Shown in pieces: positions 50,609-53,279 of a stretch of DNA of 64,000 bases; the first letter of the stretch is position 1, and each line of letters opens with the position of its first letter. Below the pieces are notes generated by a model that was given only the letters and a program-made list of their open reading frames with translations, searched no databases and was not told the DNA's origin. Made by a program: the position numbers and the translations under genes. Source of the stretch: an uncultured Shimia sp. (lineage in GTDB: Bacteria; Pseudomonadota; Alphaproteobacteria; Rhodobacterales; Rhodobacteraceae); contig NZ_CANMJE010000004.1 of NCBI RefSeq assembly GCF_947498095.1, forward strand, positions 62,001 through 126,000. The letters are read 5' to 3'.

Positions 50609-51466
50609 TCAGAGCGCGATCAGACTATCGGTCAACTGTTGCCATTGTCGGCGTGACACCCGTTCCTTTGCCGCCAGCAACCAATAGGTTTCATGATGGG
50701 TCAGCACCTCGGTACTGGCCCTTTTGAGTGCGCCCCTGTCAAGATCAGCCTGCACAAGCGGTAACGACGACAGAACCACACCCAGCCCGGCACGGGCCGC
50801 AGCAAGCGCCGAGCCAAAAGTGTCAAAGCGCAGATGCGGCACCGGGGTGGTGGGGGTTCCGAACCGTTCCGACCAGTGCCGCCACTCCGGGCGCGGTCCG
50901 GAAACAGAGATGCGCGGCAGGTCGGACCAGTGGCCTTGCTCGAGCAGTGCCGGGGTCGCAACGGGCGTGAGGCGTTCTTCGTACAGCGGCGCGCGGTAGG
51001 CAACGGGCCAGTCCCCTGCCCCGTAACGAATGCGGATGGCGTCATCCTCGCGCGCCTCGCCGGTGGTCACCACCATGGTACGCAACCGAATTTCGGCCCC
51101 GGTTTCTGTCGCCAGCCTTGCCAGACGCGGCACCAGCCAAAGCTCGGTGATTGAACTGGAGGCTGAGATCGTCAATCGGTTACGCGCGACACCAAACAGC
51201 GCCTCGGTACTGTCACGCAATCCTTCTAGCGCCAGTTGCACATGCGGCAACCACGCCTCACCCTCGGGTGTCAGACTGATCTGGCGCGCCTGCCGGAGAA
51301 AGAGCCGCGCGCCAAGGCGGGTTTCCAAATGCCCGATGCGCTGGCTGATGGCCGATTGCGTGAGGCCGGTTTCTGTGGCCGCCGCGGTAAAACTACCAAG
51401 ACGTGCGGCGGTTTCATAAGCGCGGATCCACTCCAAGGGAAGTTGGTCAAAACTTGGCGTTTGCAT
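50609..51466 (-). CDS. LysR-family regulator, probable controller of tmpAB
   Basis: A 285-residue LysR-type regulator of the GcvA branch. The helix-turn-helix AARLGSFTAAATETGLTQSA and ISQRIGHLETRLGARLF is at residues 16-58, and a periplasmic-binding-like effector domain follows. It is divergent from the oxygenase pair with 95 bases between starts, the classical arrangement for a local activator. The predicted inducer would be the trimethylaminoethylphosphonate substrate or its hydroxylated form; this is inference. Confidence 0.88.
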   Translation of the reverse strand: MQTPSFDQLPLEWIRAYETAARLGSFTAAATETGLTQSAISQRIGHLETRLGARLFLRQARQISLTPEGEAWLPHVQLALEGLRDSTEALFGVARNRLTISASSSITELWLVPRLARLATETGAEIRLRTMVVTTGEAREDDAIRIRYGAGDWPVAYRAPLYEERLTPVATPALLEQGHWSDLPRISVSGPRPEWRHWSERFGTPTTPVPHLRFDTFGSALAAARAGLGVVLSSLPLVQADLDRGALKRASTEVLTHHETYWLLAAKERVSRRQWQQLTDSLIAL

Positions 51467-51512
51467 TATGGAATCGACCTCTCAGGATCAGAAAGGATAA
51501 TTTGCCATAATG
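51464..51512. promoter_or_regulatory. Inverted repeat in the lysR-tmpA interval
   Basis: CATTATGG (51464-51471) and CCATAATG (51505-51512) are perfect inverted copies 33 bases apart. The first includes the lysR start codon. They could be paired half-operators of the LysR protein, giving autorepression. A T-N11-A type core can be drawn around ATAATTTGCCATAAT (51497-51511). Confidence 0.4.
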
Positions 51513-51561
51513 AATTAACATGGGCAATTTGTGTGAGAAAACAGTTTTAAAAGGCGTTTCT

Positions 51562-52692
51562 ATGATGACCGAGGTTTCTTTGTCCCAGGACGGTGATGTT
51601 TTGACGCTGCAGACCGCAAAGGGTCCGCTGCGATTTCACGCGATCTGGCTGCGCGACAATGCCATCGATGGCGCCACGCGGGATGCGTCGAACGGGCAAC
51701 GACTGATCACGCTGGCGGACCTGTCGCCCGAGACAACACTCAGCGCCGCCGAGGTCACAGGAGATCAGCTGACCCTGACCTTTCAGCCCGACGGACACTG
51801 CGTGACGTATGATGTGCGGTGGCTTGCCGAGAACGCCTATGACCGACCGCAACCGCGCGATGCCGGACAGTTGGCGGATGGGGTTGAAGCCTGGGATGGC
51901 GCCCTGAACGCGGCGGTTCCGACCGGGCAGTATCCGGCCCTTGTGGCGGATGGGACTGCGCGTCGCGACTGGCTGAGCGCACTCCGGCGCTATGGCTTTG
52001 CCAAGTTGACGGACCTGCCAGTGGAAGAAGGCAATCTCTACAAGATCGTCGATCTGTTTGGGTATGTCCGCGAGACCAATTATGGGCGGCATTTTGAAGT
52101 GCGCACCGAGGTGAACCCAGTCAATCTCGCCTTTACCGGGCTGGGGTTGCAGGCACATACCGACAATCCCTACCGCGATCCGGTGCCATCTATTCAGGTG
52201 CTCTCGTGCCTCGATAACTCTGCTGCGGGTGGGGAAAACATGGTGGTTGATGGCTTTGCCTGTGCCTTGCGGCTAAAGGCCGAAAACCCCGAGGGTTTTG
52301 ATCTGTTGGCAAAGTACACCGCGCGATTTTCTTACACAGGCAGCGCAGGCGTTAAACTGCAATCGCGCCGCCCCATGATCGAACTCGACCCGGATGGCAC
52401 GCTGCGCGGGGTGCGCTTCAATTCGCGCTCGATTGCACCGCTGACGGATATCCCATTTGACGACATGCAAGCCTATTACGCCGCCTATCGCCAGCTCTCG
52501 GACATCATAGATGACACCGCGATGGAGGTCATTTTCAAGCTGGAACCGGGCGAGGCTTTTGTCGTGGATAACACGCGCGTTCTGCACGCCCGCAAAGGCT
52601 ATTCAGGCGAAGGCAGCCGCTGGTTGCAAGGCTGTTACGCGGACAAAGATGGTGTCTTGTCGACACTGGCAGCCTTGGAGGAAACCGCATGA
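51562..52692 (+). CDS. tmpA: 2-(Trimethylamino)ethylphosphonate dioxygenase-like 2OG oxygenase (TmpA)
   Basis: A 376-residue TauD/BBOX-type Fe(II)/2-oxoglutarate oxygenase. The N-terminal domain ([28 protein letters not shown]) resembles that of gamma-butyrobetaine hydroxylase without its zinc cysteines. The iron facial triad is His199-x-Asp201 ([10 protein letters not shown]) and His342 ([10 protein letters not shown]), and Arg353 should bind 2OG. BBOX-like sequence alone would suggest carnitine synthesis. The 4-base overlap with an HD oxygenase gene instead points to TmpA, which hydroxylates C1 of 2-(trimethylammonio)ethylphosphonate. AAGG lies 8 bases before the ATG at 51562. Confidence 0.8.
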
Positions 52693-53279
52693 CCAATCCG
52701 GAGTTCAGCCCCCTGACCAAAGACAATATCGTGGCCTTTCTTGGCGACATTTTCGATCGACGTGGCGGAGAGGAATACCTTGGCGAAGCGGTGACAATGG
52801 CCGAACACATGCTGCAGGGGGCCACGATTGCCGAACAGAATGGCATGCCCGAGGATGTGATCGTCGGTGCATTGCTGCATGACATCGGGCATTTCACATC
52901 CGAGTTCGGTACTTACGCACCAACCGATACCGAAGATCGCCACCACGAGGATGCAGGCGCCGAGGTTCTGGCGCCGTTCTTTCCGTCAGTCATCACCGAT
53001 TGCGTTTTGTACCACGTCGCCGCGAAACGCTACCTCTGTGCGACGAAACCGGAGTACTTCAAGCGTCTGTCGCCCGCCTCGGTACACACGCTGGATCTGC
53101 AAGGTGGGCCAATGAATGCCGAAGAAGTGGCCGCTTTTGAGAAGAACCCGAACCTCGAAAAGATCATCCAGGTGCGGTACTTGGACGAAGCTGGCAAACG
53201 CGCGGATATGGAGACGCCCGATTTTCAGCACTTTGCCCCGATGGTGCAAAGATTGGTGGACGCACATCTCGCAGATTAA
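52689..53279 (+). CDS. tmpB: PhnZ/TmpB-like HD-domain diiron oxygenase
   Basis: A 196-residue mixed-valent diiron oxygenase that cleaves the C-P bond of a 1-hydroxyphosphonate. Residues align with those I recall for PhnZ at a near-constant offset: lid Tyr30 and Glu33 ([13 protein letters not shown]), His40, the pair His64-Asp65 (LLHDIGHF), His86 (RHHEDAG), His109 and Lys113 (YHVAAKRYL), and Asp166 (VRYLDEAGK). The partner upstream is BBOX-type rather than PhyH-type, so the substrate is predicted to be (1-hydroxy-2-trimethylammonioethyl)phosphonate, giving glycine betaine and phosphate. The start overlaps the tmpA stop (ATGA). Confidence 0.84.

Follow-up and report, generated by a model that had tools for sequence, protein, structure and literature searches.

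A TmpA/TmpB-type gene pair in a Shimia-like roseobacter, predicted to act on a quaternary-ammonium phosphonate and belonging to a lineage with Ala or Ser in place of Asn287

A 64-kb stretch of DNA from an uncultured Shimia sp., referred to as a whole as the window, carries two overlapping oxygenase genes next to a divergently oriented regulator gene. The features considered here are as follows.

48205..49407, plus strand: MFS exporter-like gene (Pfam MFS_1; the nearest NCBIfam model is a Tet-type efflux model, with a score under its cut-off), the second neighbour at this site
49488..50582, plus strand: zinc alcohol dehydrogenase gene (Pfam ADH_N and ADH_zinc_N), the upstream neighbour that marks the site
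50609..51466, minus strand: lysR, coding for a GcvA-like LysR-type regulator (Pfam HTH_1 and LysR_substrate, both over cut-off)
51498..51512, plus strand: AT-rich conserved site TAATTTGCCATAATG in the lysR-tmpA intergenic region, a probable LysR operator
51562..52692, plus strand: tmpA, predicted 2-trimethylaminoethylphosphonate hydroxylase, Fe(II)/2OG type, 376 aa (NF049936, 6npb)
52423..52425, plus strand: codon of Ser288 of this TmpA, aligned with Asn287 of Leisingera TmpA (6npb alignment)
52689..53279, plus strand: tmpB, predicted (R)-1-hydroxy-2-trimethylaminoethylphosphonate oxygenase, HD-domain diiron type, 196 aa (NF049941, 6npa)

The open reading frame of tmpA opens at position 51520, and comparison with relatives points to the ATG at 51562 or 51565 as the likely start. 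The 4-base overlap proposed in the original prediction was borne out, as tmpA ends at 52692 and tmpB starts at 52689. Its start of the unit at 51464 lies just within the 5′ end of the divergent lysR gene; the gene pair itself is on the plus strand. In each of the 48 family-level loci that were fetched, tmpB is the same-strand neighbour of tmpA, and in 39 of them the two genes overlap by 4 bases.

Both products exceed the cut-offs of the corresponding NCBIfam equivalog models: TmpA scored 571.4 bits against NF049936, 171 bits above the cut-off of 400, and TmpB 350.2 bits against NF049941 (cut-off 300). TmpA scored 399.1 bits against the model of gamma-butyrobetaine hydroxylase (BBOX), TIGR02409, under its cut-off of 414.75, and TmpB remained under the cut-offs of PhnZ1 (NF052439, 149.8 bits; cut-off 300) and Phn-HD (TIGR03276, 199.7 bits; cut-off 214.6); neither protein reached the TMLD cut-off in this comparison. 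The best solved relatives by sequence are TmpA 6npb (E 1.6e-145) and TmpB 6npa (E 1.2e-103), sequence matches that are far beyond chance, and the same structures were the top Foldseek matches of the two predicted folds (TM 0.93-0.94 for TmpA). The earlier reading of the pair as TmpA/TmpB-like is thus largely right, since both equivalog cut-offs are passed, that of BBOX is missed and the nearest structures are 6npb and 6npa. Its remark that the oxygenase would normally be called a gamma-butyrobetaine hydroxylase does not hold for the current NCBI models.

A true gamma-butyrobetaine hydroxylase lying by chance beside a PhnZ-like gene is an extremely improbable explanation. The oxygenase has the same fold as human BBOX (TM 0.81), its score comes close to the BBOX cut-off, and the two models overlap: in one distant relative with a fused ORF (L250), the cut-offs of BBOX and TmpA are both exceeded, with the higher score for BBOX. 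However, structural alignments give 59% identity to TmpA and 26% to human BBOX, and the oxygenase possesses Arg288, which is absent from human BBOX and from 20 of the 21 BBOX-like paralogues read. The constant adjacency of tmpB also argues against this explanation, as does the phylogenetic analysis called for by the original prediction, in which the TmpA rows form a clade of their own, split from the BBOX-like paralogues with support of 100/99.

Residues of the active sites point the same way. The aromatic cage of TmpA, at positions that we take from an alignment with human BBOX, is kept at Y173, F177 and Y358; Y190 is replaced by Phe, likewise in many relatives. The iron triad and the 2OG-binding arginine (H198, D200, H341 and R352 in the 6npb alignment) are all retained. 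An excerpt of PMC9296572 gives N187, N287 and R288 as the phosphonate contacts of TmpA; the first and the last are kept in the protein of the window, and N287 is replaced by Ser. In TmpB, the H...HD...H...H...D ligands and the YxxE lid are present, the ligands being found in 133 of 133 aligned rows; Tyr30, Glu33, His40, His64, Asp65, His86, His109 and Asp166 occupy the positions originally assigned to them and align with TmpB and PhnZ. The lid residues of the characterised TmpB are likewise numbered Y30/E33 in the part of PMC8177086 consulted. Assignment to the TmpA/TmpB type, in preference to PhnY/PhnZ or gamma-butyrobetaine hydroxylase, is supported by the family models and solved structures, by phylogeny, and by the predicted folds and active-site residues, with the qualification that one phosphonate contact differs from that of the characterised enzyme. 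The pair very probably belongs to the known TmpA/TmpB pathway, here in a Shimia-like roseobacter, with an activity deduced from its relatives.

By analogy with the characterised Leisingera enzymes, TmpA, a Fe(II)/2-oxoglutarate oxygenase of gamma-butyrobetaine-hydroxylase fold, would hydroxylate C1 of 2-(trimethylammonio)ethylphosphonate, giving the (R)-alcohol, and TmpB, an HD-domain mixed-valent diiron oxygenase, would cleave the C-P bond oxidatively to yield glycine betaine and phosphate. We consider it highly likely that the two genes constitute a substrate-specific phosphonate catabolic unit, with tmpA probably controlled by the divergent LysR protein. The pair bears out one specific route: from a single molecule, marine roseobacters could draw phosphate as well as glycine betaine. 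Counted against the catabolic unit were the replacement of Asn287 by Ser here and by Ala or Ser clade-wide, the lack of an identified phosphonate transporter in the genome, and the small number of scanned loci carrying phosphonate or betaine genes.

The earlier statement that no transporter or C-P lyase is near agrees with whole-genome searches, which revealed no PhnJ, no PhnE over cut-off (nine weak matches, none within the window) and no phosphonate transporter. All matches to Phosphonate-bd, OpuAC, BCCT and SBP_bac_6 lie outside the window. Those considered for uptake were set aside: the Phosphonate-bd protein (contig C8) adjoins amino-acid-type ABC genes, the OpuAC match (C4) belongs to an NMT1-type system, the one SBP_bac_6 protein read of seven (C15) is far under the aminoethylphosphonate models, and BCCT matches, found at three places and in one of them split over two frames, have no tie to tmpAB. 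Counted by clusters, 4 of 80 named loci have genes for aminoethylphosphonate breakdown (PhnA, phosphonoacetaldehyde dehydrogenase) near tmpB, and 5 of the 80 have one that is dimethylglycine-dehydrogenase-like, which speaks for the catabolic unit. Among eight loci whose neighbours were scanned, phosphonate or betaine genes are clear in L206 and L244 and possible in L240, and were not seen near L190, L207, L218, L226 and L251. A search of viral contigs for TmpB gave one pattern match and no relatives.

Judged by position alone, the lysR product, whose top NCBIfam model is GcvA with a score under the GcvA cut-off, is probably a local regulator of tmpA. Its relatives adjoin tmpA in other genomes too. 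The link is strengthened by the conservation of the intergenic site: the block AAAGGNTAAYTTG is present in 10 of 10 aligned Shimia intergenic regions and was absent from 100 shuffles of the window, and a cross-genus intergenic motif reached 18.0 bits, compared with about 8.0 in three shuffles. The site core, TAATTTGNNNTWATG, has a single exact copy in the genome. In a search for further LysR targets, sites with at most one mismatch numbered six in all, against seven for the reversed pattern; at the five others a single adjacent ORF was read per site, and all five ORFs were unrelated. The site at 51498-51512 is a probable, predicted operator through which the LysR protein would act on tmpA, and it offers a handle on the inducer. 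The proposed unit of LysR, TmpA and TmpB stands at the locus of the window, but among 13 Ala/Ser-type loci from other genera 11 lack lysR, and in these tmpA directly follows the alcohol dehydrogenase gene.

The pathway is known from a related bacterium; what is new here is a lineage of TmpA without one of the three phosphonate-holding residues. All 24 rows of one clade carry Ala or Ser at column 287, where 41 of the 42 rows used for comparison carry Asn, and this column is the most clade-specific of those aligned in TmpA (overlap 0.02); Ser42, Gly151 and Tyr214 are further clade-specific positions. An initial tree comprised 88 rows, most of them family-level, with a BBOX-like outgroup; in it the Ala/Ser rows formed a paraphyletic base below an Asn clade. 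In a more widely sampled tree, 24 of 26 Ala/Ser rows form one nested clade, with support of 98/99 when column 287 is omitted. We prefer this second tree because distant TmpA proteins were added and column 287 was left out. The first tree and the state of the paralogues themselves at this column (Ala in 10 of 21 BBOX-like sequences, Asn in 1 of 21) are points against it. Among 25 genomes of the genus Shimia, the Ala/Ser-type pair occurs in 13 and the Asn-type pair in 4, never together; the probability of such a lack of co-occurrence by chance is 0.039, uncorrected for kinship.

One could imagine that this TmpAB lineage, sited at one place of roseobacter chromosomes, has a remodelled phosphonate pocket (Ala/Ser for Asn287 in the 24 rows read) and acts on another quaternary-ammonium phosphonate, or on the known one with clearly altered kinetics, and that the Asn type, at other places in genomes, replaces it; we regard this as unlikely. 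Rather improbable, too, is a functional offshoot in which the same two-step chemistry would serve a different or wider quaternary-ammonium phosphonate in a pocket with one hydrogen-bond donor fewer. The specificity of column 287, the well-supported clade and the three further positions speak for such an offshoot. Nevertheless, N187, R288, the cage and the iron residues are retained, and in TmpB no position is comparably clade-specific (the lowest overlap being 0.31), with none at ligands or lid. Moreover, the two types never co-occur within the genus, and both are accompanied by LysR and its site. The same substrate as that of the Leisingera enzymes is likelier than a changed one. Specificity is now testable, as one residue sets the lineage apart from the crystallised enzyme, and this bears on the database labels of the lineage.

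The Ala/Ser lineage is also marked by its neighbourhood, 23 of its 24 rows adjoining one alcohol dehydrogenase gene. This gene accompanies tmpAB at all 12 other Ala/Ser-type loci of the genus and at 12 of 13 outside it. A four-gene operon, with the dehydrogenase and the MFS protein as functional parts of the pathway, would fit the picture in other genera, where 11 of the 13 Ala/Ser-type loci have the dehydrogenase gene immediately upstream of tmpA in the same orientation, at about -4 to 92 nt. However, 24 of the 25 genomes of the genus carry the dehydrogenase (in three, at 69-71% identity), some of them without tmpAB, compared with tmpB over cut-off in 17. The MFS-dehydrogenase order persists without tmpAB in five of eight stretches read (L180, L181, L182, L185 and L187), and no dehydrogenase gene was found in the fetched stretches of 35 Asn-type family loci. 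This operon is consequently very unlikely, and the MFS and dehydrogenase genes are probably not dedicated partners, since both persist without tmpAB.

The Leisingera caerulea enzymes (6npb/6npc/6npd and 6npa; excerpts of the reviews PMC10574752 and PMC8177086) share with the pair of the window the two-gene order, metal ligands, lid Tyr30/Glu33, N187 and R288. The latter pair differs by Ser for Asn287, Phe for Tyr190 and its place beside the alcohol dehydrogenase gene, a site common to its relatives. PhnY*/PhnZ, which converts 2-aminoethylphosphonate to glycine and phosphate, has the same logic of an oxygenase and an HD diiron oxygenase, and the PhnZ fold and ligands recur here; however, the HD protein is 31-34% identical to PhnZ in structural alignments, and its partner belongs to the BBOX/TmpA group. 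BBOX shares with this TmpA the fold, the iron and 2OG residues and the cation cage. DfmD of dehydrofosmidomycin biosynthesis (PDB 9j0j) is, from the portion of PMC9296572 consulted, a 2OG oxygenase with the same phosphonate substrate, but it is a far relative (E 3.1e-27) with rearrangement chemistry in a biosynthetic setting.

Fused forms occur among distant relatives: of 70 named loci that have TmpA, six encode it together with TmpB as one continuous ORF, and the actinobacterial loci are of this kind. In the four fused ORFs scanned, the TmpA half is over cut-off in all and the TmpB half in none. These fusions are paralleled by PhoF, a fungal PhnY-PhnZ fusion that likewise pairs an oxygenase with an HD oxygenase; unlike the unfused pair of the window, its substrate, as given in an excerpt of PMC10574752, is 2-aminoethylphosphonate.

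The two overlapping oxygenase genes code for a TmpA-type and a TmpB-type protein, and the gene coordinates bear out the 4-base overlap of the original prediction:

50609-51466, divergent from tmpA: lysR (285 aa)
51520-52692, + strand: ORF of tmpA (protein of 376 aa, probably starting at 51562 or 51565)
from 52689, + strand: tmpB (196 aa), overlapping the end of tmpA

In hmmscan, the oxygenase scored 571.4 bits with the TmpA model (cut-off 400) and stayed under the cut-off of the gamma-butyrobetaine model (399.1 vs 414.75 bits). The HD protein scored 350.2 bits with the TmpB model (cut-off 300) and fell under the cut-offs of the Phn-HD (199.7 vs 214.6 bits) and PhnZ1 (149.8 vs 300 bits) models. 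The closest solved structures by sequence were TmpA 6npb (E 1.6e-145) and TmpB 6npa (E 1.2e-103). AlphaFold models (mean pLDDT 91.1 for TmpA and 93.2 for TmpB) gave the same ranking: TmpA matched 6npb (TM-score 0.93-0.94; 59% identity) better than human BBOX (0.81; 26%), and 6npa ranked above PhnZ for TmpB. A whole-genome profile search of the source genome (4.08 Mb, 99.99% complete) detected one TmpA and one TmpB above cut-offs and no others. The TmpA/TmpB pathway was reportedly described by Rajakovich 2019. PMC10590968 states that only one degradation pathway for the trimethyl phosphonate has been described so far; further background is found in PMC10574752, PMC8177086, PMC9381506, PMC12366243 and PMC11203657.

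The lid residues Tyr30/Glu33 and the iron ligands His40, His64, Asp65, His86, His109 and Asp166 proposed for TmpB were all found. The ligands are invariant over 133 aligned rows, a set that excludes L051, three duplicates from Shimia and those named loci that lack TmpA, and the lid pair is present in 131/131 rows with letters there. The cage positions Y173, F177, Y190 and Y358 of TmpA were placed through an alignment with human BBOX and its cage numbering; the window protein has Phe at Y190. By alignment it retains N187 and R288 together with the iron triad and the 2OG arginine, and carries Ser (its own residue 288) at N287. The phosphonate contacts of TmpA are N187, N287 and R288, according to PMC9296572.

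TmpB was above its cut-off in 17/25 genomes of the genus. Thirteen of the 17 accompanying TmpA are of the Ala/Ser type at position 287 (9 Ala and 4 Ser, window included) and all adjoin a zinc alcohol dehydrogenase gene (49488-50582, + strand, in the window), which none of the four Asn-type genes does. In the family, TmpA was above cut-off in 51/394 genomes; the 50 rows read (48 fetched, the window and G006; the split gene of G143 was left out) comprise 35 Asn and 15 Ala/Ser types. The dehydrogenase gene lies near 14/15 of the latter (L156 lacks it) and near 0/35 Asn types in the fetched stretches, some of them short. Named genomes, partly the same as those of the genus and family sets, were represented by the best 80 of 168 confirmed relatives: 70 of these 80 stretches contain a TmpA match (62 Asn, 8 Ala/Ser), and 6/8 Ala/Ser types among the matches listed lie by the dehydrogenase gene (not L213 and L264). 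TmpB-like genes stand without a TmpA match in 10 of the 80 (L209, L238, L245, L246, L255, L261, L262, L263, L266 and L267). One genome with Ala/Ser-type tmpAB (G017) also carries, on contig C1 (L051:8404-8925), a PhnZ-like HD gene scoring 156 bits with the TmpB model.

A wider tree, computed without column 287, used a selection of 82 of the rows read (76 TmpA and 6 BBOX-like outgroup rows). In it, 24/26 Ala/Ser rows, window included, form a single clade (98/99) that is nested within the Asn types, with L213 and L264 outside; the dehydrogenase gene accompanies 23 of the 24 (exception L156). In an earlier 88-row tree with fewer distant TmpA, the Ala/Ser rows form a paraphyletic base under an Asn clade (99/91). 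Because this tree differs and BBOX-like paralogues have Ala in 10/21 cases and Asn in 1/21, Ala/Ser at 287 may be either derived or ancestral. With the ten remotest TmpA rows (9 Asn, 1 Ser) set aside, column 287 best separated the clade from the comparison rows (overlap 0.02; Ala/Ser in 24/24 vs Asn in 41/42 and Ser in 1/42), followed by Ser42, Gly151, Tyr214 and others. In TmpB no column as clade-specific was found (lowest overlap 0.31). None of the listed titles and abstract openings concerned the position-287 split.

The block AAAGGNTAAYTTG is common to 10/10 aligned Shimia lysR-tmpA intergenic regions, the surroundings of which have diverged; it has one copy in the window and none in 100 shuffles. 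A motif search over 71 upstream regions with a divergent LysR, covering both TmpA types and assuming one site per sequence, returned a 24-base motif with the core TAATTTGannTtATG at 18.0 bits vs about 8.0 in three shuffled sets, a score inflated by shared ancestry; the rows g_L037, g_L045, L113 and L119 match poorly. Since this motif is conserved and TAATTTGNNNTWATG, the core at 51498-51512 in the window, recurs nowhere else in the genome in exact form, control of tmpA by LysR is likely, and likely local. LysR and its site can be common to both types, as would be expected if Ala/Ser-type and Asn-type TmpAB served the same function. TmpB and the other TmpA contacts are likewise unchanged, and the two types, found in 13 and 4 of the 25 genus genomes, never occur together (probability of this by chance 0.039, with no correction for kinship); the persistence of Ala/Ser at 287 throughout the clade, however, speaks against a common function.

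The usual gene order in the genus is pca-type genes, MFS, alcohol dehydrogenase, (lysR), tmpA, tmpB, and MR/MLE-type enolase-superfamily, ArsR-type and Lhr-type helicase genes. Eight dehydrogenase-gene stretches were fetched from genus genomes without tmpAB there: in five (L180, L181, L182, L185 and L187) the MFS and dehydrogenase genes remain and the enolase-type gene comes next, in L183 and L186 both remain with other genes downstream, and the layout of L184 is not clear. Because these genes persist without tmpAB and the dehydrogenase is present in 24/25 genus genomes (three at 69-71% identity), tmpAB appears to be an optional part of a stable gene block. In 11/13 Ala/Ser-type loci of other genera the dehydrogenase gene immediately precedes tmpA, in the same orientation and about -4 to 92 nt away (in L151 lysR lies in between; L156 lacks the gene), and co-transcription is likely there, with no shared function implied. 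The window MFS gene (48205-49407, + strand), a kind kept at this site with or without tmpAB, has its nearest matches among efflux models of the Tet(A)/Tet(B)/Tet(C) type, though it falls well short of their cut-off (324 vs 475 bits). Amidohydrolase, OprB-type porin and M20 peptidase genes (53318-57435) separate tmpB from the enolase-superfamily gene (57611-58843) in the window; this gene directly follows tmpB in 10/12 other Ala/Ser-type genus loci, so the stretch is variable.

Among the best 80 of 168 named loci, PhnA and phosphonoacetaldehyde dehydrogenase clusters lie near tmpB in four (PhnW in three) and a dimethylglycine-dehydrogenase-like protein in five. Chosen neighbours were scanned in eight loci. 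The cluster names come from the profile scans of L244 and L206, the latter also having a GbdR-like regulator under that model's cut-off; L240 has an aldehyde dehydrogenase and an FAD oxidoreductase, and a phosphonate or betaine link was not clear for L190, L207, L218, L226 and L251. TmpA and TmpB form one continuous ORF in 6/70 listed named loci (from the best 80 of 168).

Fused TmpA-TmpB ORFs (521-565 aa)
L250:6864-8552, gammaproteobacterial MAG
L254:6849-8543, Streptomyces
L258:6954-8516, Kitasatospora
L265:6897-8528, Streptomyces
L259 and L260, Kitasatospora

In the four scanned, the TmpA half was above cut-off (4/4; 411 to 430 bits) and the TmpB half under it (4/4; 196 to 260 vs 300). L250 scored higher with the BBOX model than with TmpA (478.7 bits, above the BBOX cut-off); L258 exceeded the Phn-HD cut-off, and L254 did so by 0.1 bit. 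Such fusion speaks for joint action of the two halves, whatever their substrate. The fused ORFs resemble the fungal PhnY-PhnZ fusion PhoF in being one chain.

The whole-genome profile search found no PhnJ, in line with the lack of a C-P lyase near the unit, and no PhnE above cut-off. Candidate transporters comprise one Phosphonate-bd protein above cut-off, adjoining amino-acid-type ABC genes, seven SBP_bac_6 matches (the one read lies far under aminoethylphosphonate models) and three BCCT places; none is linked to tmpAB. AepP is described in PMC8316502 as a GlpT-related permease of the MFS type; the window MFS protein resembles Tet-type exporters. A second HD-domain protein, encoded on contig C15 of genome G000 (L288:6297-8889), gives weak Phn-HD, TmpB and MIOX matches with NCBIfam scores far under cut-offs, and its gene adjoins genes for a divergent LysR and an SBP_bac_6 solute-binding protein.
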